64,000 bases of DNA from Priestia megaterium NBRC 15308 = ATCC 14581 (GTDB lineage Bacteria; Bacillota; Bacilli; Bacillales; Bacillaceae_H): contig NZ_CP009920.1 in NCBI RefSeq assembly GCF_000832985.1, positions 3,404,501 to 3,468,500 on the forward strand, given 5' to 3'. Positions 9,768-56,888 of the stretch are shown piece after piece (within the stretch, counting starts at the first letter, position 1; every line of letters starts with the position of its first letter). The position numbers and the translations under genes were made by a program. Below the pieces are notes generated by a model. That model did no database searches and was not told the DNA's origin. It saw nothing but the letters and a program-made list of their open reading frames with translations.

Positions 9768-10011
9768 AAAAAGATATAGAGACAAAAGTATGTTAGCTGA
9801 AGGAAGATCCGAACAAAGTGATTCTTGATTAAGAATCAACTTCGTTCGGATTTTTTTGTGGTGAGGACGAACGCAGGCTTCATATATTTAGCTGCTTCTA
9901 GCTGTTGACTCGAGGGCAAGGCGGAAATTCCTGCGGGACAAGCGGTTCGGCTCATGTATCCTATTTGTTCGTTTTTAGATTGTATTGATTTCGTTATGTT
10001 TCAATCTTTTT
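9768..10011 (+). repeat. Dispersed intergenic repeat copy 1 (partial core)
   Basis: Copy of a six-member repeat family in this window. It starts one base after the preceding stop codon with AAAAAGATATAGAGACAAAAG, carries the terminator hairpin at 9807-9857, then the CTTCTAGCTGTTGA and CTGCGGGA(C)AAGCGG core, and ends near TTATGTTTCAATCTTTTTT. The GC-rich second half of the core seen in copies 2 and 4 is missing. Same orientation as copy 4. Confidence 0.85.
9807..9857 (+). terminator. Terminator inside repeat copy 1
   Basis: ATCCGAAC and GTTCGGAT form the base of a long stem topped by a TGATTCTT/AAGAATCA inner stem and followed by seven Ts. It is the only terminator after the CoADR-like gene. 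Confidence 0.85.
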
Positions 10012-10015
10012 TCGA

Positions 10016-10041
10016 TTCGACAAGCAGCATCTTTTGTCGAA
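10016..10041. promoter_or_regulatory. Inverted pair of Spo0A-box-like sites
   Basis: TTCGACAA (10016-10023) and TTGTCGAA (10034-10041) are perfect inverted copies of the TTGTCGAA core of the Spo0A box, ten bases apart. A third, one-mismatch copy (TCCGACAA) lies at 10101-10108. They sit upstream of the Spo0E-like gene, which suggests Spo0A control; binding is inferred only. Confidence 0.6.
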
Positions 10042-10139
10042 AAACAAGTTGTAAAAAAAAGATAAATGGTATTCCTATAGTAATGTAAGCGTTTTTAAAT
10101 TCCGACAAAATAATTTTTTTGCAAAAAAAATGTCTATTA

Positions 10140-10169
10140 TTGCGACTCTATTTACATATTTAGTAGAAT
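10140..10169 (+). promoter_or_regulatory. Candidate promoter of Spo0E-like gene
   Basis: TTGCGA (10140-10145) and TAGAAT (10164-10169) with an 18-base spacer, about 50 bases before the GTG start. A sigma-A-like match of moderate quality. Confidence 0.4.
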
Positions 10170-10218
10170 TTGTAATAATGCGTTATAAGCTAATTTCTTT
10201 GTCATAGGAGAGGATTTT

Positions 10219-10458
10219 GTGTTTGGAGTGAGAAATAGAACGAAATCAGAGAGATTATTAGTAGAAATCGTCCAAAAAAGACAAAAGATGGTGCAGCTCG
10301 GAGAAGAAAAAGGTTTGACTAATGAAGAAACCGTTACCTGTAGTCAAGAGCTTGATCAGCTCTTACTCGTTTATCAAAAGAAGCGTTTAAAAGAAGAGGA
10401 AGAAAAGACATCGTTTGCCACGCTGATTAGCCGCTTTTTATCTTTTTCAAAGCTGTAA
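10219..10458 (+). CDS. Spo0E-family aspartyl-phosphate phosphatase
   Basis: 79-residue protein of the Spo0E-like family, which removes phosphate from Spo0A~P and so delays sporulation. The family signature S-Q-E-L-D-Q-L-L lies near residue 47, preceded by a helix with regularly spaced hydrophobic residues, fitting the two-helix hairpin fold. The start is GTG behind AGGAGAGGA. In B. subtilis spo0E lies between the mtn genes and clpE, so position supports the call. Spo0A-box-like sites upstream would make a feedback loop. Several paralogues usually exist per genome, so I give no symbol. Confidence 0.8.
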   Translation: MFGVRNRTKSERLLVEIVQKRQKMVQLGEEKGLTNEETVTCSQELDQLLLVYQKKRLKEEEEKTSFATLISRFLSFSKL

Positions 10459-10522
10459 TACAGGACAAGCATTCGGGATCGGGCAGTAAAACAATCGTGC
10501 TGCCCGTGGCCTCTCTTCACCT

Positions 10523-11254
10523 TTAAAAAATGTTAATTAAAAAGATCATAAACAAAATACCAAAAATAAACGAATAAGTAGCAAATCTTTCGTTTCCATC
10601 GCCGTGGCTTTCTGGAATCAACTCTTTATAAATAATAAAAAGCATGGCTCCAGCAGCAAAAGCTAATCCATATGAAACGAGAGAATCAACAAAATTAGTT
10701 AAATAAAACCCGAGTAAAGACGTTACAATCTCAACGGAGCCTGTAAGGGTAGCAATTAAAAATGCTTTTATTTTACTGATGTTTTGCTGAGCTAAAAATA
10801 GCGCGACCAACAGTCCTTCAGGTGCATTTTGAAGACCGATTGCAAGGGCAATTAAGTTCCCTGTATTTTCAACATTTGAAGCGTAGCTAACACCAACAGA
10901 CAGTCCTTCAGGAAGGTTATGCAAAGTAATAGCGGAAACAATTAAAAGTGCTTTTTCATCAAACTGAATGCCGGTTTTAGAATGCTCAAGATCAATGTGA
11001 GGAATATTCTGCTCCAAGAGTGTTAATGTTACAACTCCAAGCAGTAAGCCAATGGCTAAGGAAAAAAAACCGCCACTTTGAAGAGATTCTGGAATCAAGC
11101 TCATAGTAGAAGCTGCTGTCATAATACCTGCAGTGAGCGCAAGAAGTATATCTTTCCAGCGATGAGTGAGTTCTTGATTCAAAAACAGAATAGGCAAAGC
11201 GCCTACTCCAGTCGATAGCGCAGAAAGAATGCTTCCAATTAGGACCTCAGTCAT
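10523..11254 (-). CDS. ZIP-family metal transporter
   Basis: 243-residue membrane protein of the ZIP family, which moves divalent metals such as zinc into the cytoplasm. About eight hydrophobic helices are visible. The metal-binding HNLPEGLSVG motif is near residue 115-125 and a second NAPEGLLVAL near 145. The start at 11254 follows AAAAGGAGAC; the in-frame extension upstream is a basic run without a ribosome binding site. An unremarkable stand-alone gene; the metal is not readable. Confidence 0.88.
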   Translation of the reverse strand: MTEVLIGSILSALSTGVGALPILFLNQELTHRWKDILLALTAGIMTAASTMSLIPESLQSGGFFSLAIGLLLGVVTLTLLEQNIPHIDLEHSKTGIQFDEKALLIVSAITLHNLPEGLSVGVSYASNVENTGNLIALAIGLQNAPEGLLVALFLAQQNISKIKAFLIATLTGSVEIVTSLLGFYLTNFVDSLVSYGLAFAAGAMLFIIYKELIPESHGDGNERFATYSFIFGILFMIFLINIF

Positions 11255-11380
11255 AAACCGTCTCCTTTTACGTATTCTTCTTTTTATCCTCAATTCACAT
11301 CGTTCTTTTAGTGTATGTTTTTTTGGTTTCTATGAGCATGACTATTTTAAAAGTGAATAGCTTTATGCAATAACCTTACA

Positions 11381-11412
11381 AAAAAGTTGAACCAGTGAAG
11401 GTTCAACTTTTT
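11381..11412 (-). terminator. Terminator after HIT-like gene
   Basis: AAAAAGTTGAACC pairs with GGTTCAACTTTTT around a six-base loop. Its arm overlaps the stop codon of the minus-strand gene and it could work in both directions. Confidence 0.8.
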
Positions 11413-12178
11413 AGGTAAAGTACAGCTCCTGAACTTGGTTAGCAATGTGCTCAAGCTTATTGGAAACTTGAGGAATGCCATATCCTACATACAAAGGAGA
11501 TGTGGCAAAGCGAGGAATGATTTTCGCCGCAATTTTGCCGTTTTTAAGATCATAAAAAAATAAGTTGTAGCTCGTGCAGCTACGATGAAAATGATTTAAT
11601 AAATAGTGAGCAGCCGTTTGAAGATAATCTGCAAATGCGTGCAGCTCTTTGTCAAGCTGATCCGTTATCACGTTAAATTCAAAAAAGCCCATTCTAGGTT
11701 TTACAGATAAATTAAATGTGACGTGTTCATTTTGGGCAATTGTGACTCCTTCAAACTGCTCTAGCTTCACATTTTCATTTACATCTATCTCATTTAAACC
11801 AATAATTTGCATATGAGGATGTCGTAATGATCCTCCGGACATGGGGCCGTGGTTTTTAAAGAAAAGAACAGAAGCATATTCTCCGCTGTTCATCATAGAT
11901 ATCCATCGTTCAGTAGCGAAGTTCAGCAAGGTGTACAGATGTTCCTTTGGATAAATAGATAGCTCCGAAGAACATTCATCGGTCTCAATAATAACCGTCT
12001 GATAAGCATCTTGCAGAACGGGAAACTTATTTTTCAGCCAAATGATAGGTCCTTGTTTTTCAATAATGCCTGTAAGAGATTCTACATCGCAAAAGGGACA
12101 GGGATTTTGCCGGTTAACGATTGTTTCAGGCTTTTGTGAACCAATCGCGGAATTAAATAATAAATGGGTTGGTTTCAT
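11411..12178 (-). CDS. DUF4931 / HIT-like (GalT-fold) protein
   Basis: 255-residue protein resembling the DUF4931 group of the HIT superfamily, related to galactose-1-phosphate uridylyltransferase. It has NPCPFCDVE near residue 26, a likely zinc or structural cysteine pair, and a histidine-triad-like SLRHPHMQIIGL near residue 120. Substrate and reaction are unknown; a nucleotide transferase or hydrolase is possible from the fold. The start at 12178 sits about seven bases after AAAGGTGA; the ATG at 12184 is too close to that site. It faces away from the MarR gene across a shared promoter region. Confidence 0.7.
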   Translation of the reverse strand: MKPTHLLFNSAIGSQKPETIVNRQNPCPFCDVESLTGIIEKQGPIIWLKNKFPVLQDAYQTVIIETDECSSELSIYPKEHLYTLLNFATERWISMMNSGEYASVLFFKNHGPMSGGSLRHPHMQIIGLNEIDVNENVKLEQFEGVTIAQNEHVTFNLSVKPRMGFFEFNVITDQLDKELHAFADYLQTAAHYLLNHFHRSCTSYNLFFYDLKNGKIAAKIIPRFATSPLYVGYGIPQVSNKLEHIANQVQELYFT

Positions 12179-12312
12179 AATCATTCACCTTTTTATGTAA
12201 TGGTCATATGTTTATTGTATTAAAAGCATATGTATAAATCCACTTATATACATTTTTTATCAAAAAAATTGTACAAGCGGAGAGAATAACCGATGAAATA
12301 AGCCTGCTTTGA

Positions 12313-12359
12313 TTGACTTTGAAGGGAAATTTTAGTATTATCTTGATATCAAGATAATA
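12313..12359 (+). promoter_or_regulatory. MarR gene promoter with palindromic operator
   Basis: TTGACT (12313-12318) and TATTAT (12336-12341) are 17 bases apart. A perfect 24-base palindrome spans 12336-12359 (half site TATTATCTTGAT) and covers the -10. This is the arrangement expected of an autorepressed MarR/DUF24-like operator. Confidence 0.8.
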
Positions 12360-12377
12360 TTAAAGGAACTGATTAAA

Positions 12378-12848
12378 ATGACGAATGATGTAACTAGAGA
12401 AGAGTTAGACCAATCTCTTAAATTATTTATTGTACTATCTCGTGCCAATCGTTCAATTAATGATCATGTGCATAAATTTATTCAACAGCATGGAATGAAT
12501 CCAACCGAATTTGCTGTCCTAGAGTTATTGTACCACAAAGGCCAGCAGCCTCTGCAGCAAATTGGCGGAAAAATTCTACTCGCAAGCGGCAGTATTACGT
12601 ATGTAGTAGACAAGCTTGAGAAAAAAGGCTTCTTAGAGCGCGTTGCTTGTCCGAACGATCGTCGCGTAACCTATGCAGCTATCACCAAGCAAGGTAAGGA
12701 AATGATTGAAAGCATGTTTCCGAGTCACGAAAAAAGAATTCATGATATTTTATCCGTTTTATCTAGCGAAGAAAAGGAAGTTGCCATTTCGATGCTTAAG
12801 AAACTAGGGCACTATGCAGATGAATTTTTACCGGAATCGACTAATTAA
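12378..12848 (+). CDS. MarR-family transcriptional regulator
   Basis: 156-residue winged-helix repressor of the MarR family, similar in build to MhqR/OhrR-type sensors of quinones, peroxides or other small ligands. Helix-turn-helix residues lie around 45-80 (NPTEFAVLELLYHKG, then LLASGSITYVVDKLEKKG), followed by the family's acidic wing CPNDRRVTYAAIT. Cys95 just before the wing is a possible redox residue. The perfect palindrome over its own -10 points to autoregulation. The divergent HIT-like gene shares the intergenic region and may be co-controlled. Confidence 0.88.
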   Translation: MTNDVTREELDQSLKLFIVLSRANRSINDHVHKFIQQHGMNPTEFAVLELLYHKGQQPLQQIGGKILLASGSITYVVDKLEKKGFLERVACPNDRRVTYAAITKQGKEMIESMFPSHEKRIHDILSVLSSEEKEVAISMLKKLGHYADEFLPESTN

Positions 12849-12858
12849 TTAAGGAAAG

Positions 12859-12892
12859 CTCGTTTGTTTCTGTTGAACAAACGAGTTTTTTT
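12859..12892 (+). terminator. Terminator after marR-type gene
   Basis: CTCGTTTGTT (12859-12868) pairs with AACAAACGAG (12876-12885), followed by seven Ts. Confidence 0.9.
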
Positions 12893-13015
12893 CTATGACT
12901 TCTTTCATGACCAATCGACATAAAAATAAAAAGTTACAAAAAATTGAAATTAACAGGAATACAGCTGGATAAAAACGAATTAGGTTACATACAGACAATA
13001 GAGGAAGGAGAACAA

Positions 13016-14713
13016 ATGATGAAATTTGAAGATTATACATATACGCGACCTGATATGAATGAAATTGAAAAGCAATTTGAAAAGGCCATTACACATTTTA
13101 CGGAAGCAGCGTCAGTCAGTCAGCAAAACGAGGCAATTCGTTTAGCAAATGATGCGTATTCCCAGTACAGCACAATGGGGAACATCTGCTATATTCGTCA
13201 TTCTATCGACACAGCGAATGAATTTTATAAAGAAGAACAAGACTATTTTGATGAAACACAGCCGCTTTTAGAAGGATATGTAGAGAAATTTTACAAAGCG
13301 TTAATCTCTTCGCCTTTTAAACGGCAACTAGAAGAAAAGTGGGGCAAGCAGCTGTTCTCTCTTGCTGAAATGCAGTTAAAAACGTTCTCTCCGGAAATAG
13401 TAAAAGAGCTTCAGGAAGAAAATAAGCTATCGTCTCAATATACGAAACTAGTGGCGTCAGCTAAAATTGTATTTGAAGGAGAAGAAAGAACGTTAGCTCA
13501 GCTTGATCCGTTTATGGAGTCACCTGATCGAGGAATGAGAAAAAAAGCAGCAGAAGCGAAATTTCAATTTTTTACCGATCATGAAGAGGAATTTGATGAT
13601 ATTTATGACAAACTTGTAAAAGTGCGGACCAAGCTTGCTGAAAAACTAGGCTATAAAAATTTCGTAGAAGTGGGCTATGCTCGTATGTCTAGAATAGGCT
13701 ACGATGCTGAAATGGTTGCCGCTTTTCGCAAACAAGTAAAAGAGTATATTGTTCCCCTTACTGAAAAACTAAAAAAGCGTCAGCAGGAAAGAATTCAAGT
13801 AGAGAGCTTAACTTATTATGATGAACCGTTTCAGTTTGAAACAGGAAACGCAGTGCCAAAAGGTGATGAAAAGTGGATTATTGAAAATGGACGAGTTATG
13901 TATAAGGAGCTTTCTAAAGAGACGGACGAATTTTTTTCATTTATGCTTGAAAATAATTTGATGGATCTAGTCGCTAAAAAGGGCAAAGCAGGCGGAGGCT
14001 ACTGTACGTTTATTGAAGAATACAAAGCACCGTTTATTTTTTCAAATTTTAATGGAACATCAGGGGATATTGATGTGTTAACGCATGAAGCAGGGCATGC
14101 TTTTCAAGTGTATTCCAGCCGAGATATGGAAACCAATGAGTATCACTGGCCTACGCATGAAGGAGCTGAAATTCATTCGATGAGCATGGAGTATTTTACA
14201 TGGCCTTGGATGGAGTTGTTCTTTAAAGAAGACAAAGATAAATACCAGTTTTCTCATTTAAGCTCAGGCTTAACCTTCTTACCTTACGGGGTAGCGGTAG
14301 ATGAATTTCAGCATGCTGTATACGAACGTCCTGAGATGACGCCTTCGGAACGAAAACAAACGTGGCGAGAAATTGAAAAGAAATATATGCCTTCTAAAAA
14401 CTATGACGGCCATCATTATCTAGAAAGCGGGGGCTTCTGGCAGCGCCAGCTTCATATTTACACGTCTCCGTTTTATTATATTGATTACACACTCGCTCAA
14501 ATTTGTGCATTTCAATTTTGGAAAAAAGATCGAGAAAATCATGAGCAAGCATGGCAAGATTACGTTCATTTGTGTAAGCTTGGCGGAAGTAAGCCGTTTT
14601 TAGAATTAGTAGAGGAAGCGAATTTGATCTCTCCATTCGAAGAGGGTTGCGTGCAGTCTGTAGTAGATGAAATTGAAAACTATTTAAATAGTATTGATGA
14701 TAAAAAGCTATAA
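13016..14713 (+). CDS. M3-family oligoendopeptidase
   Basis: 565-residue zinc metallopeptidase of family M3 (PepF/M3B type), which cleaves short cytosolic peptides. The zinc site THEAGHAF is near residue 360, with a downstream glutamate in HEGAEIHSMSMEYF as third ligand. Length is normal for M3B. GGAAGGAG at 13003-13010 favours ATG at 13016 or 13019 over the earlier TTG. The gene ends directly against repeat copy 2, which provides its only visible terminator. Confidence 0.9.
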   Translation: MMKFEDYTYTRPDMNEIEKQFEKAITHFTEAASVSQQNEAIRLANDAYSQYSTMGNICYIRHSIDTANEFYKEEQDYFDETQPLLEGYVEKFYKALISSPFKRQLEEKWGKQLFSLAEMQLKTFSPEIVKELQEENKLSSQYTKLVASAKIVFEGEERTLAQLDPFMESPDRGMRKKAAEAKFQFFTDHEEEFDDIYDKLVKVRTKLAEKLGYKNFVEVGYARMSRIGYDAEMVAAFRKQVKEYIVPLTEKLKKRQQERIQVESLTYYDEPFQFETGNAVPKGDEKWIIENGRVMYKELSKETDEFFSFMLENNLMDLVAKKGKAGGGYCTFIEEYKAPFIFSNFNGTSGDIDVLTHEAGHAFQVYSSRDMETNEYHWPTHEGAEIHSMSMEYFTWPWMELFFKEDKDKYQFSHLSSGLTFLPYGVAVDEFQHAVYERPEMTPSERKQTWREIEKKYMPSKNYDGHHYLESGGFWQRQLHIYTSPFYYIDYTLAQICAFQFWKKDRENHEQAWQDYVHLCKLGGSKPFLELVEEANLISPFEEGCVQSVVDEIENYLNSIDDKKL

Positions 14714-15064
14714 AAAAAGAGATTGAGACACAACAAAATCAATCCAATCTAAAGACGAACAAATGGGATAAACAATCTAGTATGAATCGCTTGTTACACC
14801 GCCGTTGATTTCCGTGCAAGGCTTCGCTTTCCGCGGGCGGCCGGTGAGCCTCCTCGGCGCTCATGCTCCTGCGGGGTCTCACCTATTCCGCTTTTCCCGC
14901 AGGAGTCTTCGCCTTGCCCTCCAATCAACAGCTAGAAGCACCTAGATTAAATCTACGTTCACCCTCATAATAAAAAAATCCCAATGAGTTTGATTCTTAA
15001 TTAAGAATCAAACTTGTTCGGATCTTTCTTCAACTAACATACTTTTGTTCCAGCCTCTTTTTTT
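14714..15064. repeat. Dispersed intergenic repeat copy 2 (full length)
   Basis: Full-length member in reverse orientation to copies 1 and 4. The left end is AAAAAAGAGATTGAGACA; the right end, read on the minus strand, is AAAAAAAGAGGCTGGAAC. Between them lie the GACGAACAAATGGGATAAA block, a GC-rich core with CCGCGGGCGGCC and CTCCTGCGGGG/CCCGCAGGAG arms, and a terminator-like stem near 14969-15030. It starts one base after the M3 peptidase stop and its other end meets the kinase stop on the opposite strand. Confidence 0.88.
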
Positions 15065-17302: not shown

Positions 17303-17304
17303 TA

Positions 17305-24192: not shown

Positions 24193-24264
24193 CATTATTT
24201 ATACGCATGTGGTATAATACGATGACAATTCAAGAAGAAACGCCGTGCACGTTTGTATATGTAC

Positions 24265-24300
24265 GGGAGAGGTTCGAAAACTCCCTCTATAAAAAACTAA
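24265..24300 (+). ncRNA. preQ1-I riboswitch of queCDEF
   Basis: GGGAG (24265-24269) and CTCCC (24281-24285) form P1 around an AGGTTCGAAAA loop, followed by the A-rich tail TCTATAAAAAACTAA that folds back as a pseudoknot. This matches the very small class I preQ1 aptamer known from the B. subtilis queC leader. It should lower que expression when preQ1 is plentiful. Confidence 0.93.
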
Positions 24301-24318
24301 GATCATCGTTGATGACAA

Positions 24319-36498: not shown

Positions 36499-36698
36499 AA
36501 AGAGACTAAGACATAACTACATCAATTTTTTCCGCAGGAGTCTTCGCCTTGCCCTTCAAACAGCTAGAAACAGCTACATGAAATCAAGTTCACCATCACA
36601 ATGAAAAAATCCGAACGCAGTTGATTCTCAATTAAGAATCTGGATTTACCGTTCGGATCTTTCTTCAGCTAAAATCCATTTGTCGCAGCCTTTTTTTC
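36499..36698. repeat. Dispersed intergenic repeat copy 3 (internally deleted)
   Basis: Same orientation as copy 2. Left end AAAGAGACTAAGACATAAC, then a jump to TTTTTCCGCAGGAGTCTTCGCC, CAGCTAGAA, a terminator-like stem with ATCCGAACG/CGTTCGGAT near 36608-36660, and right end TGTCGCAGCCTTTTTTT. The block with the CCGCGGGCGGCC core is missing. Confidence 0.82.
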
Positions 36699-36751: not shown

Positions 36752-39700
36752 TTACAATACGTTAAAATATTTCGCTTCAGGATGTGCAAAAACAAGGGCT
36801 GTAACAGAAGCTTCTGGTTCCATCATGAAACCGTCTGTTAACTGAATGCCGATGTCTTCAGGTTTAAGTAATTTAAACAGTTTTGCTTGGTCTTCAAGGT
36901 CTGGACATGCAGGATATCCGAATGAAAAACGCTGACCTTGGTATTTGGCTGAAAAACGCTCCGCCATTGTAAAGTCAGGCGAATCAGGGAATCCCCAGCG
37001 GTCACGAATTTGCTGATGAACACGTTCTGCTAATCCTTCAGCTAGTTCAAGCGCAAGAGCTTGGAACACGTGACTCTTTAAAAACTCGCCGTTTTCTTTG
37101 AATTTCGCCGCGCGTTCGCGAATGCCCGTTCCTGCTGTTACAGAGAAGAAACATACATAGTCCATCTCTTTTTCTTTAGGTTTTGCAAAATCAGATAAGC
37201 ACAGGAACTGTCCTTTTGCTTGCCGAGGGAAGGTAAAGCGTTCAATTTCTGTTTTTTCATCAGCAGGATCATAAATAATTAAATCATTTCCGTCTGCTTG
37301 AGCAGGGAAGAACTGATAAATAACCGCTGGCTTAATTAAGTTTTCTTTTAGTGCCAGTTCGAGCAAGTCATCAACGGTTTCTTTTAATTGAACAGCGCGC
37401 TCGTCTTTTTCAGCAAGCAGTTTATTCACTTTTCCTTTTAGTCCTAAGTGATGGCCTAAAAGCATCTGCCAGTTAATATACGGAAGAACCTGTGCCAAAT
37501 CGTAGTGTTTGACAACGTGCCGCTTTAAATCAGCCGGTACAAAAACAGGAGCGTCCGTTGAAATGGCGGATCTTTCTAAAACAGCGGTAGCTGCTTGAGC
37601 GGTTTGAGGCTGGCGTTCTCGAACCGTTACTTTCTTTTCTTGCCGCGTTTTTAAATCTGCTAAAAGCTGAATAACTTCTTCTTTGTTCTGCAGCTTATTT
37701 GCTAACGCTAATCCGTCCATCGCATCTTTGGCGTAGAGGACCGCACCTTCATATTCCGGGGCGATTTTAAAGTCAGTAAATTTACGGGAAAGGGCAGCGC
37801 CTCCTACCATAATTGGAACATCAATGCTTGATTGTGTTAAATCCTGGGCAGTCAAAACCATTTGCTGAGCTGACTTTACTAGAAGACCTGACAGGCCAAT
37901 GATGTCTGGCTTTTCTTCTTTTACTGCTTCAATCAGCTGCTGGGGCGTTACTTTAATTCCTAAATCAATTACTTTAAAACCATTGTTGCTTAAAATGATG
38001 TCTACTAAGTTTTTACCGATATCGTGCACGTCGCCTTTAACCGTTGCAAGAATAACTTTGCCTTTTCCAGAATCATTTTCAGTTGCTTCCATATGAGGTT
38101 CTAAAAAGGCAACGGATGCTTTCATAACTTCCGCACTTTGAAGCACTTCTGCTACAATCAGCTGGTTGTCATTAAACAAACGTCCAACTTCCGCCATCCC
38201 CTTCATAAGCGGTCCGTTAATAATATCTAACGGATCATCATATTGAGCTAAAGCCTGTTCTAAATCAGGAAGCAATCCTTCTTTTGTACCTTCGACAATA
38301 TACATTGCCAATCGTTCTTCGAGTGTTAACGTAGAAATTTCTACTTTTGCTTCTTTCTTTTTATCACGATAAAAGTCGGTAAACGTGCTTAACGTTTCAT
38401 CAGTTGTGTTAAATAATAACGCATTAGCAAGCTCAATTTCAGCTTCTGGAATAGAAGCATAGCGCTCTAATTTTTCGGTATTAACAATGGCATAATCGAG
38501 TCCAGCCTGCGTACAGTGATAAAGGTAAACCGCATTTAGTACTTCACGTCCGACTGGAGGAAGACCGAATGACACGTTACTTACGCCAAGAATGGTCAGG
38601 CAATCAGGCAGGGCTTCTTTAATCATTTTAATTCCCTTAACTGTTTCTTCAGCAGAACCAATATATTGTTCATCACCAGTCCCTACAGGAAACACAAGAG
38701 GGTCAAAAATAATATCTTTTGGATTAAAGCCATGTTTTTCAACAAGCAGATCATGTGAGCGTTTAGCAATCTCTACTTTTCGTTCTGCAGTAACGGCCAT
38801 GCCTGTTTCATCGATTGTACCGACAACCAGAGCTGCACCGAATTTTTTTACTAGCGGTAAGATTGCATCAAAACGCTCTTCACCGTCTTCTAAGTTAATG
38901 GAGTTAATAATGACCTTACCTTGTGAGTACGTTAAAGCTTTTTCAATAACTTTCTCGTCGGTTGAATCGATTACAAGAGGAACCTTCACTTTTTTTACAA
39001 CTTCTTGAATAAATTCCTCCATGTCTTCCATTTCTTCACGGTCCGGATCCGCTAAGCAAATATCAATAACGTGAGCACCATTTTTAACTTGAGCACGCGC
39101 AATTTCAGATGCTTCTTCAATTTTTCCTTCCGCAATCAGACGCTTGAACTTGCGAGAACCGATTACATTCGTACGTTCTCCCACAAAAAGAGGGCGCATA
39201 GAATCGTCATATACAAGTGGTTCAATACCGGTTACAGCATGGTTATGCTCGGAGCGATCAAGCGAACGGGGCGCAACCTCTTTTACCGCTTCAGCCAGTG
39301 CTTTAATATGAGCAGGCGTTGTACCGCAGCATCCGCCTACAAAGTTCAGCCAGCCTTTATCAGCAAACCCTTTAATTTTTTGAGCAAGCAGCTCAGGGGA
39401 TTCATGATAATTGCCTTCTTCATCCGGAAGTCCAGCGTTTGGATAACAGCTAACTGCTGAAGTGGCTAGGTCTGAAAGAGAGCGAATATGATCCGTCATA
39501 AATTCAGGGCCTGTCGCGCAGTTAAGTCCGACTGAAAGAGGCTTCATGTGTTCCAGTGATAAGTAAAAAGATTCGATATCTTGACCAGCGAGAGTTGTTC
39601 CCATCGGCTCAATTGTTCCTGAAATCATAATAGGAACTTCGATTTTTAGTTTTTCAAACGCCGCTGTAATGCCTAAAAATGCGGCTTTTACGTTCAGCAT

Positions 39701-40195
39701 GTCTTGACAGGTTTCGACTAAAAGCAAGTCAACGCCGCCGTCTAACAAACCTCGAGCTTGCTCTTCGTACGATTCTACTAACTCAGGGAATGTAATACCT
39801 CCGGTAACAGAGAGAGTCTTAGTGGTAGGACCGATAGCTCCAGCTACGAACCTAGGCCATTCGGGAGTTGAATATTTATCGCGGGCTGCACAAGCAAGCT
39901 TCACAGCTTCGATATTCAATTCATAAGCCAAGTGACCTAAATCGTATTCATCAAGTACGGTAGATGTTGAGCCAAACGTATTGGTTTCAATGATGTCAGC
40001 ACCTGCTGCAAAGTACTCTTCATGAATGCGCTGAATCACATGAGGCGCTGTTCGAGTCAAATATTCGTTGCAGCCTTCATATTCTTCGCCGCCAAAATCT
40101 TCAGCGGTTAAATCAGCATCTTGAATCATCGTTCCCATTGCTCCATCGATGACGAGTATTCGCTTCTTTAGTTGTTGTTCGATAAGTGAGCTCAT
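36752..40195 (-). CDS. metH: MetH, cobalamin-dependent methionine synthase
   Basis: 1147-residue multidomain enzyme that methylates homocysteine from methyltetrahydrofolate through methylcobalamin. In order: homocysteine domain with zinc cysteines in [10 protein letters not shown] near residue 285; pterin-binding barrel from about 325 to 610 (GERTNVIGS); cobalamin cap and Rossmann module with cobalt-ligating histidine in GDVHDIGKN near 745; SAM-dependent reactivation domain to the end. All modules complete. ATG follows the yitJ stop directly, so the two are coupled. Requires B12, which fits a B12-making organism. Confidence 0.97.
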   Translation of the reverse strand: MSSLIEQQLKKRILVIDGAMGTMIQDADLTAEDFGGEEYEGCNEYLTRTAPHVIQRIHEEYFAAGADIIETNTFGSTSTVLDEYDLGHLAYELNIEAVKLACAARDKYSTPEWPRFVAGAIGPTTKTLSVTGGITFPELVESYEEQARGLLDGGVDLLLVETCQDMLNVKAAFLGITAAFEKLKIEVPIMISGTIEPMGTTLAGQDIESFYLSLEHMKPLSVGLNCATGPEFMTDHIRSLSDLATSAVSCYPNAGLPDEEGNYHESPELLAQKIKGFADKGWLNFVGGCCGTTPAHIKALAEAVKEVAPRSLDRSEHNHAVTGIEPLVYDDSMRPLFVGERTNVIGSRKFKRLIAEGKIEEASEIARAQVKNGAHVIDICLADPDREEMEDMEEFIQEVVKKVKVPLVIDSTDEKVIEKALTYSQGKVIINSINLEDGEERFDAILPLVKKFGAALVVGTIDETGMAVTAERKVEIAKRSHDLLVEKHGFNPKDIIFDPLVFPVGTGDEQYIGSAEETVKGIKMIKEALPDCLTILGVSNVSFGLPPVGREVLNAVYLYHCTQAGLDYAIVNTEKLERYASIPEAEIELANALLFNTTDETLSTFTDFYRDKKKEAKVEISTLTLEERLAMYIVEGTKEGLLPDLEQALAQYDDPLDIINGPLMKGMAEVGRLFNDNQLIVAEVLQSAEVMKASVAFLEPHMEATENDSGKGKVILATVKGDVHDIGKNLVDIILSNNGFKVIDLGIKVTPQQLIEAVKEEKPDIIGLSGLLVKSAQQMVLTAQDLTQSSIDVPIMVGGAALSRKFTDFKIAPEYEGAVLYAKDAMDGLALANKLQNKEEVIQLLADLKTRQEKKVTVRERQPQTAQAATAVLERSAISTDAPVFVPADLKRHVVKHYDLAQVLPYINWQMLLGHHLGLKGKVNKLLAEKDERAVQLKETVDDLLELALKENLIKPAVIYQFFPAQADGNDLIIYDPADEKTEIERFTFPRQAKGQFLCLSDFAKPKEKEMDYVCFFSVTAGTGIRERAAKFKENGEFLKSHVFQALALELAEGLAERVHQQIRDRWGFPDSPDFTMAERFSAKYQGQRFSFGYPACPDLEDQAKLFKLLKPEDIGIQLTDGFMMEPEASVTALVFAHPEAKYFNVL

Positions 40196-42141: not shown

Positions 42142-42250
42142 TTCTTATCTTCCAAGCAATAAATTGCTTGCTGGATTTAGCACCATGTCTCTAACGACTG
42201 GTTGCTGAGGTTTCAAAGGGCCAGTCCCTCCACCTCTCATGATAAGAATC
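42142..42250 (-). ncRNA. SAM-I (S-box) riboswitch of yitJ-metH
   Basis: Minus strand shows TTCTTATC (P1), GAGAGGTGGAGGGACTGGCCC, CAGCAACC, GGTGCTAAATCC and closing GATAAGAA. The core helices of the SAM-I aptamer are present. The operon it controls makes methionine, the SAM precursor, so SAM should shut it off. Confidence 0.95.
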
Positions 42251-43696: not shown

Positions 43697-43734
43697 GTAA
43701 AACAAATAAGACTATAGCAGTCGAATATATTATT

Positions 43735-43879
43735 ATCCTTCGGGGTCGGGTGTAAGTCCCAACCGGCGGTGATAAAGCGTATGCTTTTAAGCCCGTGACC
43801 CGTTTTCATACGATGTATGTTAGCGGTGGATCTAGTTAAAGTCTAGAGCCGACAGTAAAAGTCTGGATGGGAGAAGGAT
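43735..43879 (+). ncRNA. FMN riboswitch (RFN element)
   Basis: P1 is ATCCTTC (43735-43741) with GAAGGAT (43873-43879). Inside are the conserved GGGTCGGGTGTAAGTCCC, ACCGGCGGTGATAAA, AGCCCGTGACCCG, TTAGCGGTGGAT and GCCGACAGTAAAAGTCTGGATGGGAGAA landmarks in order. It represses riboflavin genes when FMN is high. The hairpin with loop TTTTCATACGATGTATGTTAG is the variable P3-type arm. Confidence 0.97.
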
Positions 43880-44032
43880 CAGGAAGCACAGTTGTTTTTT
43901 TTGTGTTGAATTAATAAGGGGCACGCTTGCCTTTTTTAAAGCTACCCTTGTTTTTGTACACAAAATATAACTGTTTATTTCGTATACAATTAGCGGAATT
44001 TTGCATAGATAAAACTGATTCAGCTCAGCCGA

Positions 44033-46122: not shown

Positions 46123-46593
46123 ATGAATCATTTATATGAAGGAAATTTAGTAGGCACAGGATTAAAAATCGGAATCGTGGTAGGGCGTTTTAATGAATTT
46201 ATTACAGGCCGTTTACTTAGTGGAGCAGAAGATGCACTCAAACGTCACGGCGTAGCTGATGAAGATGTAGACGTGGCTTGGGTGCCGGGCGCTTATGAAA
46301 TCCCATTAATCGCCAAAAAATTAGCTGAATCTAAAAAATATGATGCAGTGATCACGCTAGGAACCGTTATTCGAGGAGCTACTCCACACTTTGATTTTGT
46401 ATGTAATGAAGTAGCAAAAGGCGTTGCATCTCAAAGCTTACAAACAGGCGTGCCAATTATCTTTGGTGTATTAACAACTGAAACAATTGAGCAAGCAATT
46501 GAACGTGCAGGAACAAAAGCAGGAAATAAAGGATGGGAAGCTGCAGCATCAGCTATCGAAATGGCTAACCTTTCAAAAATGATTGAAGGATAA
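46123..46593 (+). CDS. ribH: RibH, 6,7-dimethyl-8-ribityllumazine synthase
   Basis: 156-residue lumazine synthase that condenses the RibBA product with the pyrimidine precursor. Motifs [10 protein letters not shown] near 22, the substrate-site VPGAYEIPL near 56, [12 protein letters not shown] near 81 and GVLTTET near 112 are typical. Start behind AGGAGG. Last gene of the operon. Repeat copy 4 follows and provides the nearest terminator. Confidence 0.97.
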
Positions 46594-46628: not shown

Positions 46629-46957
46629 AAAAGAGGCTGAAACAAAAGTATGTTAGTTGAAGGAAGATCCGAACGATGAATCGTTCGGATTTTTTTATTG
46701 GTAGGGTGAACGCAGGTTTCAGGTATGTAGTGGCTTCTACCTGTAGATTAAAAGGTCAGGCGAAGACTCCTGCGGGAAAAGCGGGAGAAGTGTGACCCCC
46801 CAGAAGCGTAAGCGACGAGGAGGCTCAGCGGCCGCCCGCGGAAAGCGAAGTCTTGCACGGAAATCAACTGCAGTGTAGAAAGCGATCTATACTGTCTCAT
46901 GTATCCCGTTTGTTCGCCTTTAGATTGGATTGATGTAGTTATATCTCAAGCTTTTTT
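46629..46957 (+). repeat. Dispersed intergenic repeat copy 4 (full length)
   Basis: Starts AAAAGAGGCTGAAACAAAAG, carries a clean terminator (ATCCGAACGA/TCGTTCGGAT with a TGAA loop, 46667-46690, then Ts), then GGGTGAACGCAGGTTTC, CTCCTGCGGGAAAAGCGG and the GC-rich CCGCCCGCGGAAAGCGAAG, and ends at ATATCTCAAGCTTTTTT. Same orientation as copy 1, opposite to copies 2, 3, 5 and 6. Confidence 0.88.
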
Positions 46958-51214: not shown

Positions 51215-51232
51215 AAAGGAGATTGATTTAAC

Positions 51233-53220: not shown

Positions 53221-53222
53221 TA

Positions 53223-53256
53223 AAAAGGTGTGATCATATATGATCACACCTTTTTT
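53223..53256. terminator. Bidirectional terminator, ptsI/cidB
   Basis: AAAAAGGTGTGATCA and TGATCACACCTTTTT form a near-perfect palindrome around TATA, fit for both strands. Confidence 0.92.
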
Positions 53257-53261
53257 ATCTT

Positions 53262-53948
53262 TTAAGCGAAAATAGTAGGCAGAAGCATATTCGCAAACAG
53301 CATTGTAAGAAGTGCTGCTACGATCATGCCAAGGCTAGAAAAAGTACCTTCAATTTTTCCAAATTCAAAAGCTCTTGCTGTACCTGTCCCATGAGAAGCT
53401 ACTCCTAAAAGAAGACCTCTTGCTAGAGAAGAGTGCAGTGCGAGGAGCTTAATCAGTTTTGGAGCGACCATACATCCTACTACACCGGTTATAATCACAA
53501 ACATAATGGTAATATTCGGATCTCCTCCTAGCGTCTGAGATACATTAACAGCAATAGGAATCGTAACCGATCTTGGAATCAAGCTATGAACCAGCGTTGA
53601 TTGTAAATGAAACACTAATGCTAACAGCATGGAAGATATCATGGCAGCAAACGTGCCAAGCCCTACGCTTAAGCTGATTTCAACACGGTGTTTTTTGAGC
53701 AAATCAAAATACTTAAACATAGGAACAGCAAAAGCAACGGTTGCTGGTCCAAGCATAAAGCTAATAGCACTGGCACCTTGCTTATAATGATCATAAGAGC
53801 CATTCGTCACTAATAAGATGCCAATTAAAAGAATGGGGGCTAGTAAAATAGGGGAAACTAGCATAGACTTATATTTTTTATAGAGCACTTTTGTACCGAC
53901 ATAAACGAGCAGTGTAAGCGGAAGAGCAATCCATGTGAGTAATGTCAT
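53262..53948 (-). CDS. cidB: CidB/LrgB-family membrane protein
   Basis: 228-residue protein with about seven hydrophobic helices, of the LrgB family. Typical elements are ATVAFAVPMFKYFDLLKKH near 70 and VASHGTGTARAFEFG near 182-196. With CidA it is linked to murein hydrolase control, cell death or small-acid (pyruvate/acetate) transport in related systems. Start overlaps the cidA stop (ATGA). In B. subtilis this layout corresponds to ywbG. Confidence 0.85.
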   Translation of the reverse strand: MTLLTWIALPLTLLVYVGTKVLYKKYKSMLVSPILLAPILLIGILLVTNGSYDHYKQGASAISFMLGPATVAFAVPMFKYFDLLKKHRVEISLSVGLGTFAAMISSMLLALVFHLQSTLVHSLIPRSVTIPIAVNVSQTLGGDPNITIMFVIITGVVGCMVAPKLIKLLALHSSLARGLLLGVASHGTGTARAFEFGKIEGTFSSLGMIVAALLTMLFANMLLPTIFA

Positions 53949-54313
53949 TTTAGCGAACCTTCCTTTCTTCTTGAAATATGTTCTGCAATGATTCCCGTTA
54001 CAGACATCACAATAATCGTACTGATTGTGATAATAATCACAATCTGGATTCCGAAATGCATCAATACATCTCCATAATTGATGAGTCCAACGACGGCTGG
54101 TATGAAAAATAGTAATAGTTCTCCCACTAACAGTGTTCCACCTTGTTCAACCCAGCTTAATTTAATTACTTTAAAGTACAGTAAGAAAAACAGTAAGAAA
54201 AATCCGATGATACTACCTGGCACTGGGAGGTCAAACCATTGTGAAATACTTTCTCCTATTAAAAACAGAGCCGTTAGTAATAAAATCTGTAAAATCACCA
54301 TAATCAGTTTCAT
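53945..54313 (-). CDS. cidA: CidA/LrgA-family holin-like protein
   Basis: 122-residue protein with four hydrophobic helices, of the LrgA/CidA holin-like family, containing LPVPGSIIGFFLLF near 28-42 and LLFFIPAVVGLINY near 68. Proposed to form membrane pores with CidB. Start follows AAAGGAGG. Order LysR-cidA-cidB agrees with the B. subtilis ywbI-ywbH-ywbG set. Confidence 0.86.
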   Translation of the reverse strand: MKLIMVILQILLLTALFLIGESISQWFDLPVPGSIIGFFLLFFLLYFKVIKLSWVEQGGTLLVGELLLFFIPAVVGLINYGDVLMHFGIQIVIIITISTIIVMSVTGIIAEHISRRKEGSLK

Positions 54314-54621
54314 GATTAGCCTCCTTTATTTATGTTTTTATTCATTCATTTCTAGTTTGTTGAGACAATAATGGAGTCGTCTATGCTGAAAAGACGACTC
54401 CATCATGGGAAAAGAGAAACTATTTGGATTTTGCAAATGGGGATACAACTTCAGTAAATGAATGCTACACACTTATCTTACAAAAAATCGACTATAATAT
54501 GAAATATATAATAACTATGATAACTATTCTTTTTAGTTATAGTTGAAAGAAATCTCTTTACAAATGCGTTGGTAACCTTTTCAAAAAAGAATTTGTGAAA
54601 TATAAGGTCTAATTATTTAAT
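54314..54621 (-). other. 308-bp cidA upstream region with two dyads
   Basis: ATGGAGTCGTC (54371-54381) and GACGACTCCAT (54393-54403) form an 11-base stem in the leader. Further upstream, ATAACTA (54520-54526) and TAGTTAT (54534-54540) form a 21-base dyad that extends imperfectly to 54513-54544 and suits a LysR-type operator. No gene seen. Confidence 0.55.
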
Positions 54622-54797
54622 AAAAGAGATGGAGACATGCCTAAATCAATTCAATTTAAAGACGAACCAATGGGATAAATGATTTAGTATGAATGACTTA
54701 TTACACCGCCATGAAAAAAATCCGAACGAGTTGGATTTTCTATCAAGAATCAAACTCGTTCGGATTTTTAATTAAACTACTTTTGTCTCAGCTTTGT
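54622..54797. repeat. Dispersed intergenic repeat copy 5 (short form)
   Basis: Left end AAAAGAGATGGAGACATG, the GACGAACCAATGGGATAAA block, then directly the stem ATCCGAACGAG with CTCGTTCGGAT and Ts (about 54718-54768), and right end TTTTGTCTCAGCTTTG. The whole GC-rich core is absent. The right end touches the stop of the LysR gene. Confidence 0.85.
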
Positions 54798-55672
54798 TAA
54801 ACTGTACTTTTAATATAATCAATAAAAGCCTGTGTAGCGTAAGAGATATAGCGATCTTTTTTTACGATTAAAGCAATTTCCCACGGAATAGCATTCTCGA
54901 GATTAATTACTTTCACATGCTCCAAATCAAGCTTTTCACATAATGAATAAGGGAAAAGAGCAATGCCGAGATTAGCAGCTACCAGCTCTCCAATGAAGTC
55001 CCACTGAGAGCTTTTAAAAGCAATATTAGGTGTAAAACCATTTTTTAAACATTCGTTATAGACCATTTCATGCATGGTGAAGTCTTCATGAAAGGAAATA
55101 AGCGTTTCGTCTTTTAACTCTTTTAATGAAATCGTAGAATGCTGAGCCAACGGATGAGATTTATGAACAACAAGCTGCAGTGTTTCTCGGGCTAAAGGAG
55201 TCGTAAAAAACATGTTTTCATCAACTGGAAGTAAAACTACGCCCACATCCACTTCTCCTTGTTCCACAAATTTTTGCATTTTTTTAGCGCCATATTCCAC
55301 TAATTGAATATGAATCTCAGGGTATTGCTCTCGAAATGCTTTAATAATAGTAGGAAAAAACAATGTACCAATAATAGGGGGAATGCCTATTTTGATGGTT
55401 CCTCTTTTTAAATGCATTAAATCATAGAGGGAATCCGATAAATCTCGGAGAGAAGATAAAATGCTTTCTGCTTGCTCGTACACAATTATTCCTGCATCGG
55501 TAAGCTGAACTTGTTTGCCAGCGCGATCAAACAAAGGTGTGCCGAGCTCTTCTTCTAATGATTTAACCATTTTACTGAGAGAAGGTTGCGAAATATGCAG
55601 CGCTTCAGAAGCTCTTGTGAAATTTTTATGTTTAGCCACTTCTGTTAAGTAATGCAAATGGCGAACATCCAT
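54797..55672 (-). CDS. cidR: LysR-family regulator (CidR/YwbI-like)
   Basis: 291-residue LysR-type regulator. The helix-turn-helix is at about 18-40 (NFTRASEALHISQPSLSKMVKSLE) and the ligand-binding domain from 90 to the end. Start at 55672 lies behind ACGGAGGTA; the ATG seven codons earlier would put that site inside the gene. Same strand and order as cidAB, so it is the likely activator of cidAB, with a candidate dyad before cidA. In related systems the ligand is acetate or pyruvate. Confidence 0.84.
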   Translation of the reverse strand: MDVRHLHYLTEVAKHKNFTRASEALHISQPSLSKMVKSLEEELGTPLFDRAGKQVQLTDAGIIVYEQAESILSSLRDLSDSLYDLMHLKRGTIKIGIPPIIGTLFFPTIIKAFREQYPEIHIQLVEYGAKKMQKFVEQGEVDVGVVLLPVDENMFFTTPLARETLQLVVHKSHPLAQHSTISLKELKDETLISFHEDFTMHEMVYNECLKNGFTPNIAFKSSQWDFIGELVAANLGIALFPYSLCEKLDLEHVKVINLENAIPWEIALIVKKDRYISYATQAFIDYIKSTV

Positions 55673-55913
55673 TTTGTATACCTCCGTGTTCATACATGCT
55701 AATTAATAAGATACACACATTCTACCACATTCACAATCAGCTCTATACCTTTCTTTCCTATCAAATAAAATGATCAGTAGAAGAGGCAGTGAATACAAAA
55801 GAAATTGCCAACAATATATATTTACACATTGTTTATTTTAGAAGTATAATATATAAATCAGTAGAACGGTTACATATCGATCACAGAATCAATCAATAAG
55901 GTGGTTAGAACGG

Positions 55914-56690
55914 TTGAGTAAAGCAGATGAAATAAGAGATATCGTTTATATTAATGGCCATGTAAATAAAAAATGCTTTATTACATATGGAATTGAATTT
56001 AAAGAGTTTTATCATTCCCTTCCTACGCCGCTTGCAAATATATTATTGTTAAAGCACGGTTTTGAAGACAGTGATTACCATTACCAAACCCATATGGACT
56101 ACGTAGAAGAAGAACAAATTCATCTTTTAGCAGAAGATGATGTTTATAATTATGGTGATTTTTGTTGGATTGATTTTGAGGATGTATCTTCGTTAGATTT
56201 GTTAGAACCTCAAGATATTGCAGCGCTGCTGTATTTAGGTCATTTAAAAAAACCGCTCAATTCGCCATTTAATAATAAACTCGGTAATCAATTTGTTTAT
56301 TTAGCTCATGATGATGGATTTTATAACAAAATCTATTTTCGAGACGTATATGATATGAAGCATATTTTAAGCCGAATCATTCCGTTGAAAATGTCAGAAA
56401 TTAAGCAAAAAAGATTTGTATTTAGAAGGAAGAAGTTAGAATATCCAATATTGCCGCTCGTGTTAGCAAATACGCTTCTTACTTTAACGAATGACGGTTT
56501 GTTTATTGATTTTGAACACATGGTGCAATCGCGTAGAGATATTAAAATTCCTTTGTATACAATCGGTGACTTTGACGACATGAATGAAATGTATAATGAT
56601 CGGTTTGAGCACAAAGAGATGAGTAAATTGCAGGCGCATCTTGTTCTCACTCATAAAGAGCTAGAGTGGAGCATTGAAGAAGTTCAATAA
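55914..56690 (+). CDS. Hypothetical protein (258 aa)
   Basis: 258 residues, acidic, soluble, rich in Asp, Tyr and Leu. A DYHYQTHMDYVEEEQIHLL segment lies near 55-73 and a basic KQKRFVFRRKKLEYP near 163-177. No membrane helix, signal peptide or motif known to me. TTG start behind AAGGTGG. It ends four bases before repeat copy 6. Function unknown. Confidence 0.65.
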   Translation: MSKADEIRDIVYINGHVNKKCFITYGIEFKEFYHSLPTPLANILLLKHGFEDSDYHYQTHMDYVEEEQIHLLAEDDVYNYGDFCWIDFEDVSSLDLLEPQDIAALLYLGHLKKPLNSPFNNKLGNQFVYLAHDDGFYNKIYFRDVYDMKHILSRIIPLKMSEIKQKRFVFRRKKLEYPILPLVLANTLLTLTNDGLFIDFEHMVQSRRDIKIPLYTIGDFDDMNEMYNDRFEHKEMSKLQAHLVLTHKELEWSIEEVQ

Positions 56691-56693
56691 TCT

Positions 56694-56888
56694 AAAAAGA
56701 GGCTGAGACATAACTAAATGAATTCAACCTAAAGACGAACACATGAGATAGATGAGCTGGACTGCTAGAAGGAACGAAACAGATAAAACTATATTCACCA
56801 TCACAAAAAAACGAACCACCAATCAAACGTGTTGATTAATGGTTCGTTTTTCACTTGGGCTAAACTATTTTTGTCCCAGCCTCTTTTT
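56694..56888. repeat. Dispersed intergenic repeat copy 6 (divergent, short)
   Basis: It has the best-preserved ends: AAAAAGAGGCTGAGACA on the left and, on the minus strand, AAAAAGAGGCTGGGACA on the right, a 17-base terminal inverted repeat with one difference. The internal stem is different in sequence (AAACGAACCA with TGGTTCGTTT, about 56806-56850) but in the same place. It overlaps the last codons of ykwB. Confidence 0.85.

Follow-up and report, generated by a model that had tools for sequence, protein, structure and literature searches.

Comparison of alleles among closely related strains shows that short repeats, dozens of which are scattered over the Priestia megaterium-group genome studied here (G000), stand in one allele where another has a hairpin, without target duplication, and that some of the copies have been shortened by internal deletion. 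The repeats contain no transposase gene, but their ends and layout are common to insertion sequences (IS) of the IS1182 family, for which sequence comparison shows a like exchange on two plasmids, as well as a MITE/IS pair in another genome. We consider it very probable that the copies constitute a MITE family with IS1182-type ends and layout, spread by stem-loop-replacing transposition.

A family of short repeats at gene ends

Six copies are present in the window, the 64,000-nt stretch of DNA that was analysed (Table 1), all of them at the positions given in a sequence-only reading of the same DNA, which had also described their ends as inverted copies of one motif. The ends are indeed such copies, if imperfect ones: allowing up to 2 mismatches, AGAGGCTGNGACA has 11 matches in the window (7 at element ends and 4 elsewhere, by reading) compared with a mean of 2.7 and a maximum of 7 in 100 shuffles. 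The reported variation in core size through internal deletion was confirmed, and a terminator-like hairpin, claimed for most copies, was found in all 6. The number of copies lying within approximately 10 nt of a stop codon falls from the 5 claimed to 4 (copies 1, 2, 5, and 6) when open reading frames of at least 80 aa are considered. The outer AAAAA and TTTTT, previously counted as part of the ends, usually belong to the host terminator, the element proper beginning with GAGGCTG.

Table 1. Repeat copies and their terminator-like hairpins in the window
Feature	Positions	Strand	Structure and neighbours
Copy 1	9768..10011	+	A-end first; 0 nt past the stop of a Pyr_redox_2/dihydrolipoyl dehydrogenase-like gene (8427-9767)
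Copy 1 hairpin	9806..9857	.	ATCCGAACAAAG...CTTCGTTCGGAT followed by a T run
Copy 2	14714..15064	-	B-end first; flanked by convergent genes, 0 nt past the stop at 14713 and touching the stop of a histidine kinase-like gene at 15063
Copy 2 hairpin	14972..15027	.	
Copy 3	36499..36698	-	B-end first, internally deleted; ~53 nt from the stop of a methionine synthase-like gene (36752-40195, -)
Copy 3 hairpin	36603..36661	.	
Copy 4	46629..46957	+	A-end first; ~35 nt past the stop of a lumazine synthase (ribH-like) gene (46123-46593)
Copy 4 hairpin	46667..46696	.	ATCCGAACGATGAATCGTTCGGAT followed by a T run
Copy 5	54622..54797	-	B-end first, internally deleted; ends at the stop of a LysR-family gene (54797-55693, -)
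Copy 5 hairpin	54714..54769	.	
Copy 6	56694..56888	-	B-end first, internally deleted; 3 nt past the stop at 56690
Copy 6 hairpin, second type	56805..56851	.	ACGAACCA...TGGTTCGT followed by a T run

The 6 copies are real, but they make up only a small part of the family. Across the genome, AAAGAGGCTGNGACA has 84 matches when 1 mismatch is allowed, compared with 1 for the reversed motif. We studied 47 copies in which both ends are recognisable, 41 of them outside the window; single-ended copies were left out, and BLAST lists more. The 41 were retained from 56 candidate end pairs after removal of overlapping alternative pairings, pairs longer than 480 nt, and L010, the poor left end of which lies inside a gene. 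The copies are 49 to 358 nt long, and 45 of the 47 are within 150 nt of a gene 3′ end (a raw count without control). A scan found a hairpin followed by a T run in 43 copies (likewise a raw count, without shuffled baseline) but not in L012, L019, L050, and L063; the second hairpin type, present in copy 6, is also common in the family. The terminator role that had been proposed for the repeats finds support in the predicted structure only. No copy matched Rfam at the gathering score, and a relaxed scan of copy 2 yielded sub-threshold matches only, none of them convincing. When the 47 copies were compared with each other, 35 had a match covering 70% of their length, with identities of no more than 89.7%, so that there is no sign of recent movement in G000.

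Hairpins in place of the elements in related strains

The relatives compared are 96–98% identical to G000 over a 9.8-kb stretch, G002 being the most distant; in G009, where the best stretch is 79% identical, divergence was too great for sites to be read. Flanks of 40 of the 41 elements outside the window (all except L068:9204) served as queries. At these 41 sites, G002 is element-free at 29, occupied at 3, and unread at 9, and the respective numbers for G008, for which 2 of 32 regions were left out, are 11, 22, and 8; 17 of the 82 site-genome combinations were thus unread. Alleles of G007 were taken at window sites only. The window sites have ten short alleles; one of the ten, a terminal-repeat remnant in G006, was set apart beforehand and is not among the 49 alleles described below.

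A search for empty sites had been suggested as a check of mobility. Element-free alleles do exist (49 alleles at 38 of the 47 sites), but the "empty" allele is a terminator-like hairpin that the element replaced. All 49 have 23–48 extra nt between the flank anchors, and a short hairpin occupies the place of the element, with z < −2 against shuffles in 47 alleles; the other 2, at L029 and the copy 3 site, both in G002, fold no better than shuffles. The element allele lacks this hairpin (median 24 nt) but usually keeps the A and T runs on either side of it, and there is no target duplication. A permutation test of whether left and right flanks are more alike within one element than between different elements was negative (178 of 235 positions compared with 176.2 expected for 5 nt, with similar results for 8–12 nt), and we therefore turned to the symmetry of the break points as evidence. 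Of the 46 alleles that remained after 3 with poor flank matches had been dropped, 39, at 29 distinct sites, have break points that are symmetric about the hairpin centre to within 2 nt, and 7 fall outside this range; for a uniform right break, 8.5 symmetric alleles would be expected.

The sites in the window illustrate the range of allelic states. At the copy 6 site, the A5 and T5 that flank the element enclose GCACGCAGCTGATCAGCTGCGTGC in G008, the G002 allele differs from this by one base, and G006 has a 43-nt hairpin built from both terminal repeats. Terminator-like hairpins are found in G002 at the sites of copy 4 and copy 1, the latter site being occupied by other versions of the element in G008, G007, and G006. 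G002 also has a hairpin at the copy 5 site, where the left flank of copy 5 itself is unlike that of G008, G007, and G006 (GGCAATCAAAAAA is absent), which spoils the symmetry of the break points. Least convincing among the 6 is the exchange at the copy 3 site, which in G002 is a weak, short hairpin. Copy 2 is present in G000 and G006, and its place is taken in G008, G007, and G002 by the element-free allele AAAAAAAGCCGC..GCGGCTTTTTTT. This distribution, like that of the L042 alleles, is at odds with strain relatedness, pointing to inter-strain exchange or old polymorphism.

There is, in our estimate, an even chance that presence and absence of the elements today result mainly from homologous exchange between strains, transposition having occurred only in the distant past. 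The discordant alleles of copy 2 and L042 are consistent with this, as are the divergence of at least 10% between copies in G000, the failure to find an IS1182 transposase in that genome, and copy 1, in which the element is strongly diverged between strains within flanks that are approximately 95% identical. Homologous exchange nevertheless leaves unexplained how alleles lacking exactly the hairpin originated, and it complements stem-loop-replacing transposition rather than replacing it.

IS1182-family elements with the same ends

The GAGGCTGNGACA ends of the copies match those of transposase-bearing insertion sequences elsewhere, in which transposases annotated as IS1182 family (PF05598 and PF13751) sit between such ends. 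Together with the element-free alleles in relatives, the common ends support the MITE reading of the repeats. An inverted pair with up to 2 mismatches flanks 7 of the 44 PF13751 loci scanned (reversed motif, 0 of 44); the pair is missing at the other 37, and therefore only part of the IS1182 family has these ends. A class-wide search recovered the longer motif in 41 of 200 genomes, including G000, and not in the remaining 159. The 12 IS for which both ends were read (L195, L196, L198, L209, L293, L295–L298, L326, L330, and L331) all have a hairpin of at least 8 pairs no more than 60 nt from each end, a count made without shuffle comparison. This count leaves out L201, L204, L206, and L208 (one end read), L070–L074 (pieces from G020 at contig ends), and two elements in which the pairing is nested or unclear (L321 and L334); L294 and L069 are redundant with L293 and L198, respectively, and the ends of L327–L329 and L332 are the same as, or very like, those of L326 and L331.

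Neither PF13751 nor a 523-aa query detected an IS1182 transposase in G000, so the lack of a transposase noted for the window extends to the whole genome for the IS1182 type, the one covered by the search. No partner with a matching interior was found for the Priestia family, and the search of Priestia G005 gave nothing but remnants that share these ends.

In G285, a 285-nt MITE matches both ends of a resident IS encoding a 522-aa transposase (97% and 92% identity over approximately 147 nt each). The MITE qualifies there as an internal deletion derivative of its autonomous partner and also occurs in near-identical copies, as expected of recent mobility, those at different places being up to 99.6% identical.

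Autonomous IS1182 elements with GAGGCTGNGACA ends have exactly replaced a hairpin in both cases that could be read on two sides: a 1,822-bp element on a Cytobacillus plasmid, compared with two plasmids with identical flanks, and a 1,936-bp element on a plasmid of S. equorum, compared with one of S. nepalensis. On an Enterococcus plasmid, the autonomous copy starts at the base of a hairpin (AGGAATCTGACTATCAATCAGATTCCT in L302) located within an annotated ssb-like coding gene of IS-free relatives; the left flanks are 97.5–98.8% identical, and no match was found for the right flank. As this hairpin lies inside a coding gene, the targets are not terminators alone.

Hairpins of this kind lie inside both ends of the autonomous IS, and the internal hairpin might serve the transposon itself by shielding the transposase gene from read-through, any effect on the host being incidental and unselected. 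We regard this as possible but rather unlikely, given that copies without transposase mostly keep the hairpin: of the 18 copies of less than 250 nt, 17 have it but only 5 have the GC core, a contrast that presupposes equal chances of deletion in the two regions.

A far less probable reading reverses the direction, with the element ancestral and the short hairpins left over from its decay or loss. Internal deletion does yield compact hairpins, of 43 nt at the copy 6 site in G006 and of 49 nt at L017 in G000; such remnants, however, retain the terminal repeat, which (up to 2 mismatches) is found in none of the 49 short alleles. Moreover, the stems of the short alleles vary from site to site, a homologous hairpin is common to G008 and the most distant relative G002 at 10 sites (L013, L023, L040, L041, L042, L045, L052, L065, and copies 2 and 6), and the IS-free plasmid alleles of Cytobacillus and Staphylococcus hold an unrelated hairpin. 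We infer that the direction was from terminator to element. Least probable of all are ordinary bcr1-like MITEs, inserted without target loss, tolerated past stop codons, and terminators by chance: most copies do lie near gene 3′ ends, where insertion harms little, but directly joined flanks are predicted, and this is contradicted by the extra sequence in all 49 alleles read, which in nearly all of them has a hairpin that is gone from the element allele.

Proposed mechanism and relation to known systems

Under stem-loop-replacing transposition, an IS1182-type transposase would act in trans, in Priestia, on the terminal GAGGCTGNGACA repeats and on a target palindrome, mostly an intrinsic terminator hairpin. 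The target hairpin would be lost and the element joined at the hairpin base without target duplication. Such replacement would account for the position of copies next to stop codons and for the impression that the terminal A/T runs, usually remnants of the host terminator, belong to the element. As there is a terminator-like hairpin just within the end of the element, a gene stripped of its terminator would probably still have one, if the predicted structure acts as a terminator, and the elements may be tolerated on account of this replacement. Later internal deletions would shorten the element, usually sparing the hairpin, and in the extreme leave a terminal-repeat hairpin of 43–49 nt resembling an ordinary terminator.

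Most mobile elements are costly through interruption, whereas here a part of the target is swapped for a similar part, so that dozens of copies would be tolerable at gene ends and elements may multiply in a bacterial genome without damage to the ends of genes. We lean towards a broader view, in which elements that swap the host terminator for their own can invade important genes at their ends (here those for lumazine synthase, methionine synthase, and a dihydrolipoyl dehydrogenase-like protein) at little cost, a sizeable set of gene ends in Bacilli has been rewritten in this manner, internal deletion generates new, ordinary-looking intrinsic terminators, and transposition accounts for a share of terminator turnover. 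The 38 before-and-after sites provide material on how IS1182 transposases recognise and remove hairpins, and the evolution of terminators becomes testable, one gene end occurring as old hairpin, element, shrunken element, and compact remnant in strains that are 96–98% identical.

In the literature searched, which leaves out most subscription journals, we found no description of hairpin replacement by elements that are non-autonomous, occur at dozens of gene ends, and bring a substitute terminator; nor was one found in the available portions of publications on IS1182 and miniature inverted elements (including PMC3852290), and a full-text search for GAGGCTGGGACA gave no match apart from a virus paper. 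The bcr1–bcr3 elements of the Bacillus cereus group, which are short, interspersed, MITE-like, and often located in UTRs, are similar by description, hairpin replacement being unmentioned in the available part of the source (PMC3446304). SPRITE, RUP, and BOX of Streptococcus pneumoniae are also small repeats, SPRITE being terminator-like; compared by description, they come with no statement of terminator replacement in the portion available (PMC10969869).

The closest counterparts are IS1272 and TnSha1, IS1182-family elements of staphylococci for which stem-loop or "IR-replacing" transposition has been described (Furi et al. 2016, PMC4923244; Wan et al. 2017, PMC5678879). According to the available portions of these papers, in which the word "mite" does not occur, the target is a hairpin, often the terminator of a gene; the stem-loop is partly or wholly deleted, the target is not duplicated, both orientations occur, and one target can be used repeatedly. 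The Priestia copies, too, replace a target hairpin without target duplication, but whereas IS1272 and TnSha1 are autonomous IS or transposons of Staphylococcus, the Priestia family is non-autonomous and of small size, comprises dozens of copies located mostly at gene 3′ ends, and brings its own terminator-like hairpin. IS1182 elements of Bacilli with GAGGCTGNGACA ends (for example, L196, L296, L298, and L321) resemble the Priestia copies in their ends and in the hairpin inside each end; they encode a transposase, which the Priestia copies do not, and only ends and layout are common to both. The mechanism known from staphylococcal IS is thereby extended to a large non-autonomous family.

Structure and genomic setting of the repeat family

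All 6 MITE-like repeats proposed by the sequence-only reading are present (6/6; Table), and their inverted end motif is more frequent than chance, with 11 matches in the window, 7 of which are at element ends, versus a shuffle mean of 2.7, and 84 matches in the 5.75-Mb source genome (G000) versus 1 for the reversed motif. The window corresponds to G000:C6:3404501-3468500. The 47 copies studied in G000, 41 of which lie beyond the window, range from 49 to 358 nt. An oriented copy begins with the A-end, GAGGCTGGGACAAAAGTATTTTAG, followed by a terminator-like hairpin of 1 of 2 types (ATCCGAACG...CGTTCGGAT or ACGAACCA...TGGTTCGT), about GTGAACGTAGGTTTCAT, a GC-rich core, TTCGTCTTTAGATTGGATT and the B-end, which reads inward as GAGGTTGAGACATAAC. 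In a scan, a hairpin with a T run was found in 17/18 copies shorter than 250 nt and 26/29 copies of at least 250 nt, and the GC core in 5/18 and 25/29, respectively. Elements from other genera and IS1182 remnants in another Priestia, G005, contain relatives of this core (L083, L076, L085, L081, L169, and L179), so the core is widely shared. The copy in region L050 has family ends, an unrelated interior and a different hairpin, and perhaps represents a second subfamily. In region L048, a 59-aa open frame (MGRANNHKSSHNNKGS...) lies between 2 elements of the same orientation, resembling a composite mobile unit.

By descriptive count, 45 of the 47 copies lie within 150 nt of a gene 3' end (19 on both sides and 26 on one), and of 64 distances measured to a stop codon, 41 do not exceed 12 nt. 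Among the window repeats, the ORF list places a stop codon within approximately 10 nt of 4/6, rather than the claimed 5/6. The suggestion that the repeats double as terminators stands on predicted hairpin structure, from which the element hairpins are predicted to act as terminators. No Rfam family matched the repeats at gathering scores, and a relaxed scan of copy 2 returned nothing convincing; Rfam riboswitches in the window are included in the Table. The 589-aa protein adjoining copy 2 is 98% identical to a Priestia aryabhattai B8W22 protein, with the DNA around it approximately 95% identical, which assigns G000 to the P. megaterium group.

Coordinates of repeats, riboswitches and related regions (riboswitch types are matched to positions in order of naming)
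Feature	Location	Strand	Length
Copy 1	window 9768-10011		
Copy 2	window 14714-15064		
Copy 3	window 36499-36698		
Copy 4	window 46629-46957		
Copy 5	window 54622-54797		
Copy 6	window 56694-56888		
SAM riboswitch	window 1330-1436	+	
SAM riboswitch	window 42142-42248	-	
FMN riboswitch	window 43732-43882	+	
PreQ1 riboswitch	window 24263-24306	+	
L050 copy	L050:962-1231 (G000:C6, about 3235361-3235630)		270 nt
L048 element pair	L048:932-1782 (G000:C6, about 3178131-3178981)		
Region L321 (nested IS1182)	G285:C2:514700-517500		

Hairpins at element-free sites

The orthologous region was found in 4 close relatives (G002, G006, G007, and G008), 96-98% identical across a 9.8-kb stretch, and the 6 sites were read. 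In G002, the element is absent from 6/6 sites, each of which carries a short, mostly hairpin-forming sequence instead: AAAAAAGTCACCGTCTTTTAAAAGACGGTGACTTTTTT at the copy 1 site, a loop-inverted form of the AAAAAAAGCCGCGTTTGCGGCTTTTTTT found in G008 and G007 at the copy 2 site, and a sequence differing by 1 base from the AAAAAGCACGCAGCTGATCAGCTGCGTGCTTTTT of G008 at the copy 6 site. The element alleles at these sites retain the A and T runs and have lost the stem-loop between them.

Flanks of 40 of the 41 elements beyond the window were searched in G002, G008, and G007, and the G002 sites and most G008 sites were read. With the window copies included, 49 element-free alleles cover 38/47 sites, and none (0/49) contains a terminal repeat at up to 2 mismatches; a fiftieth short allele, that of G006 at the copy 6 site, has one and was counted separately as a deletion remnant. 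Folding was stronger than in mononucleotide shuffles (z < -2) for 47/49 alleles (median -5.2), the exceptions being L029 and the copy 3 site in G002. These shuffles preserve base composition only, and genes are commonly followed by terminators; what carries the argument is that the element allele lacks the hairpin, rather than that a hairpin is found nearby. In the 46 alleles with good flanks, the segment absent from the element allele measures 7 to 38 nt (median, 24 nt), and break points are symmetric around the hairpin center within 2 nt in 39/46, versus 8.5 expected under a uniform right break. The sites are not all independent in history because the strains exchange DNA. At 10 sites, the hairpin is present in both G008 and G002, the most distant of the 4 relatives, suggesting that it is likely the ancestral state.

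Age and distribution of element alleles in Priestia

Searches of G000 yielded no IS1182 transposase, and the closest pair among the compared copies is 89.7% identical, so the movement that created the element alleles is, judging from these sequences, not recent in G000. Priestia G005 carries IS1182 remnants with the same ends. Occupancy departs from strain relatedness at copy 2, where G000 and G006 have the element and G008, G007, and G002 do not, and at L042, where G006 and G007 have copies with 96% identity to the element (that of G007 at the orthologous place by flank match) and G008 and G002 have the hairpin. The allele pattern must owe something to exchange between strains or to old polymorphism. 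The relative's copy is in the opposite orientation at L012 (G008) and L028 (G002), and the P. aryabhattai element at the copy 1 site is strongly diverged, with flanks about 95% identical; these observations would be accounted for by repeated replacement at a single site, or equally by conversion or inversion. The copy 6 site in G006 (AAAAAGAGGCTGGGCTAAAATACTTTTGTCTCAGCCTCTTTTT) and the 49-nt copy L017 in G000 each consist of the 2 terminal repeats as a hairpin, and such decayed forms would look like a plain terminator.

Autonomous IS1182 elements and known hairpin-replacing systems

In other Bacillales, the same terminal repeats enclose transposase genes carrying PF05598 and PF13751, which plasmid records assign to the IS1182 family; the flanking end pair was found at 7/44 PF13751 loci scanned and was absent from 37/44. 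In all 12 such IS for which both ends were read, a hairpin with a stem of 8 pairs or more lies no farther than 60 nt from each end, with stems varying between elements (descriptive count). Exact hairpin replacement was read in 2 cases. The site of a 1,822-bp IS copy on a Cytobacillus pseudoceanisediminis plasmid (L296) holds GAACAGTCTTTAAAATATAGACTGTTC between the same AAAAAGAA and TTCTTAAAATTC in 2 C. oceanisediminis plasmids with identical flanks, and that of a 1,936-bp copy on a Staphylococcus equorum plasmid (L298) holds GACTCCTTTTAAATAAGGAGTC between the same GGTTATAAAAA and TTTTAACTGATATAAAATAAC in an S. nepalensis plasmid. An Enterococcus faecium copy (L297) starts at the foot of a hairpin lying inside an annotated ssb-like gene of IS-free relatives, in which its second flank had no match.

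The genome G285 contains both a 285-nt MITE and a resident IS (522-aa transposase frame). Over about 147 nt each, identity between the MITE and the 2 IS ends is 97% and 92%; MITE copies at separate sites are up to 99.6% identical. By these identities, the MITE in G285 is a deletion derivative of the IS, and this MITE has moved recently. At L321, the autonomous IS1182 of G285 is nested in a copy of its own MITE, with about 10 nt of the MITE middle absent relative to L315. End-motif matches number 22-61 in the 2.0-3.0 Mb of each of G158, G190, G257, G267, G308, and G317 (family f72) and of G156 and G285 (family f49). Some genomes show strand imbalance of the motif (24/8 in G257 and 13/4 in G028), perhaps linked to replication direction. 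On Kurthia plasmids pND2a and pYJ4A (L293 and L294), both from Jinan, IS1182 with these ends adjoins a CatB-related acetyltransferase gene.

In the literature searched, we found no description of a non-autonomous family replacing hairpins at dozens of gene ends with replacement terminators. The hairpin-replacing mechanism itself is already known. According to Furi et al. 2016 (PMC4923244), hairpins serve as integration sites for TnSha1 and IS1272, with part of the stem-loop deleted and no duplication, and RNA-seq confirmed hairpins A to E as terminators. For IS1272, Wan et al. 2017 (PMC5678879) put forward a model termed IR-replacing or stem-loop-replacing, and they refer to Siguier et al. on palindrome-targeting IS1182 members. 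In the sequence tests applied here, the Priestia family fits the stem-loop-replacing model.
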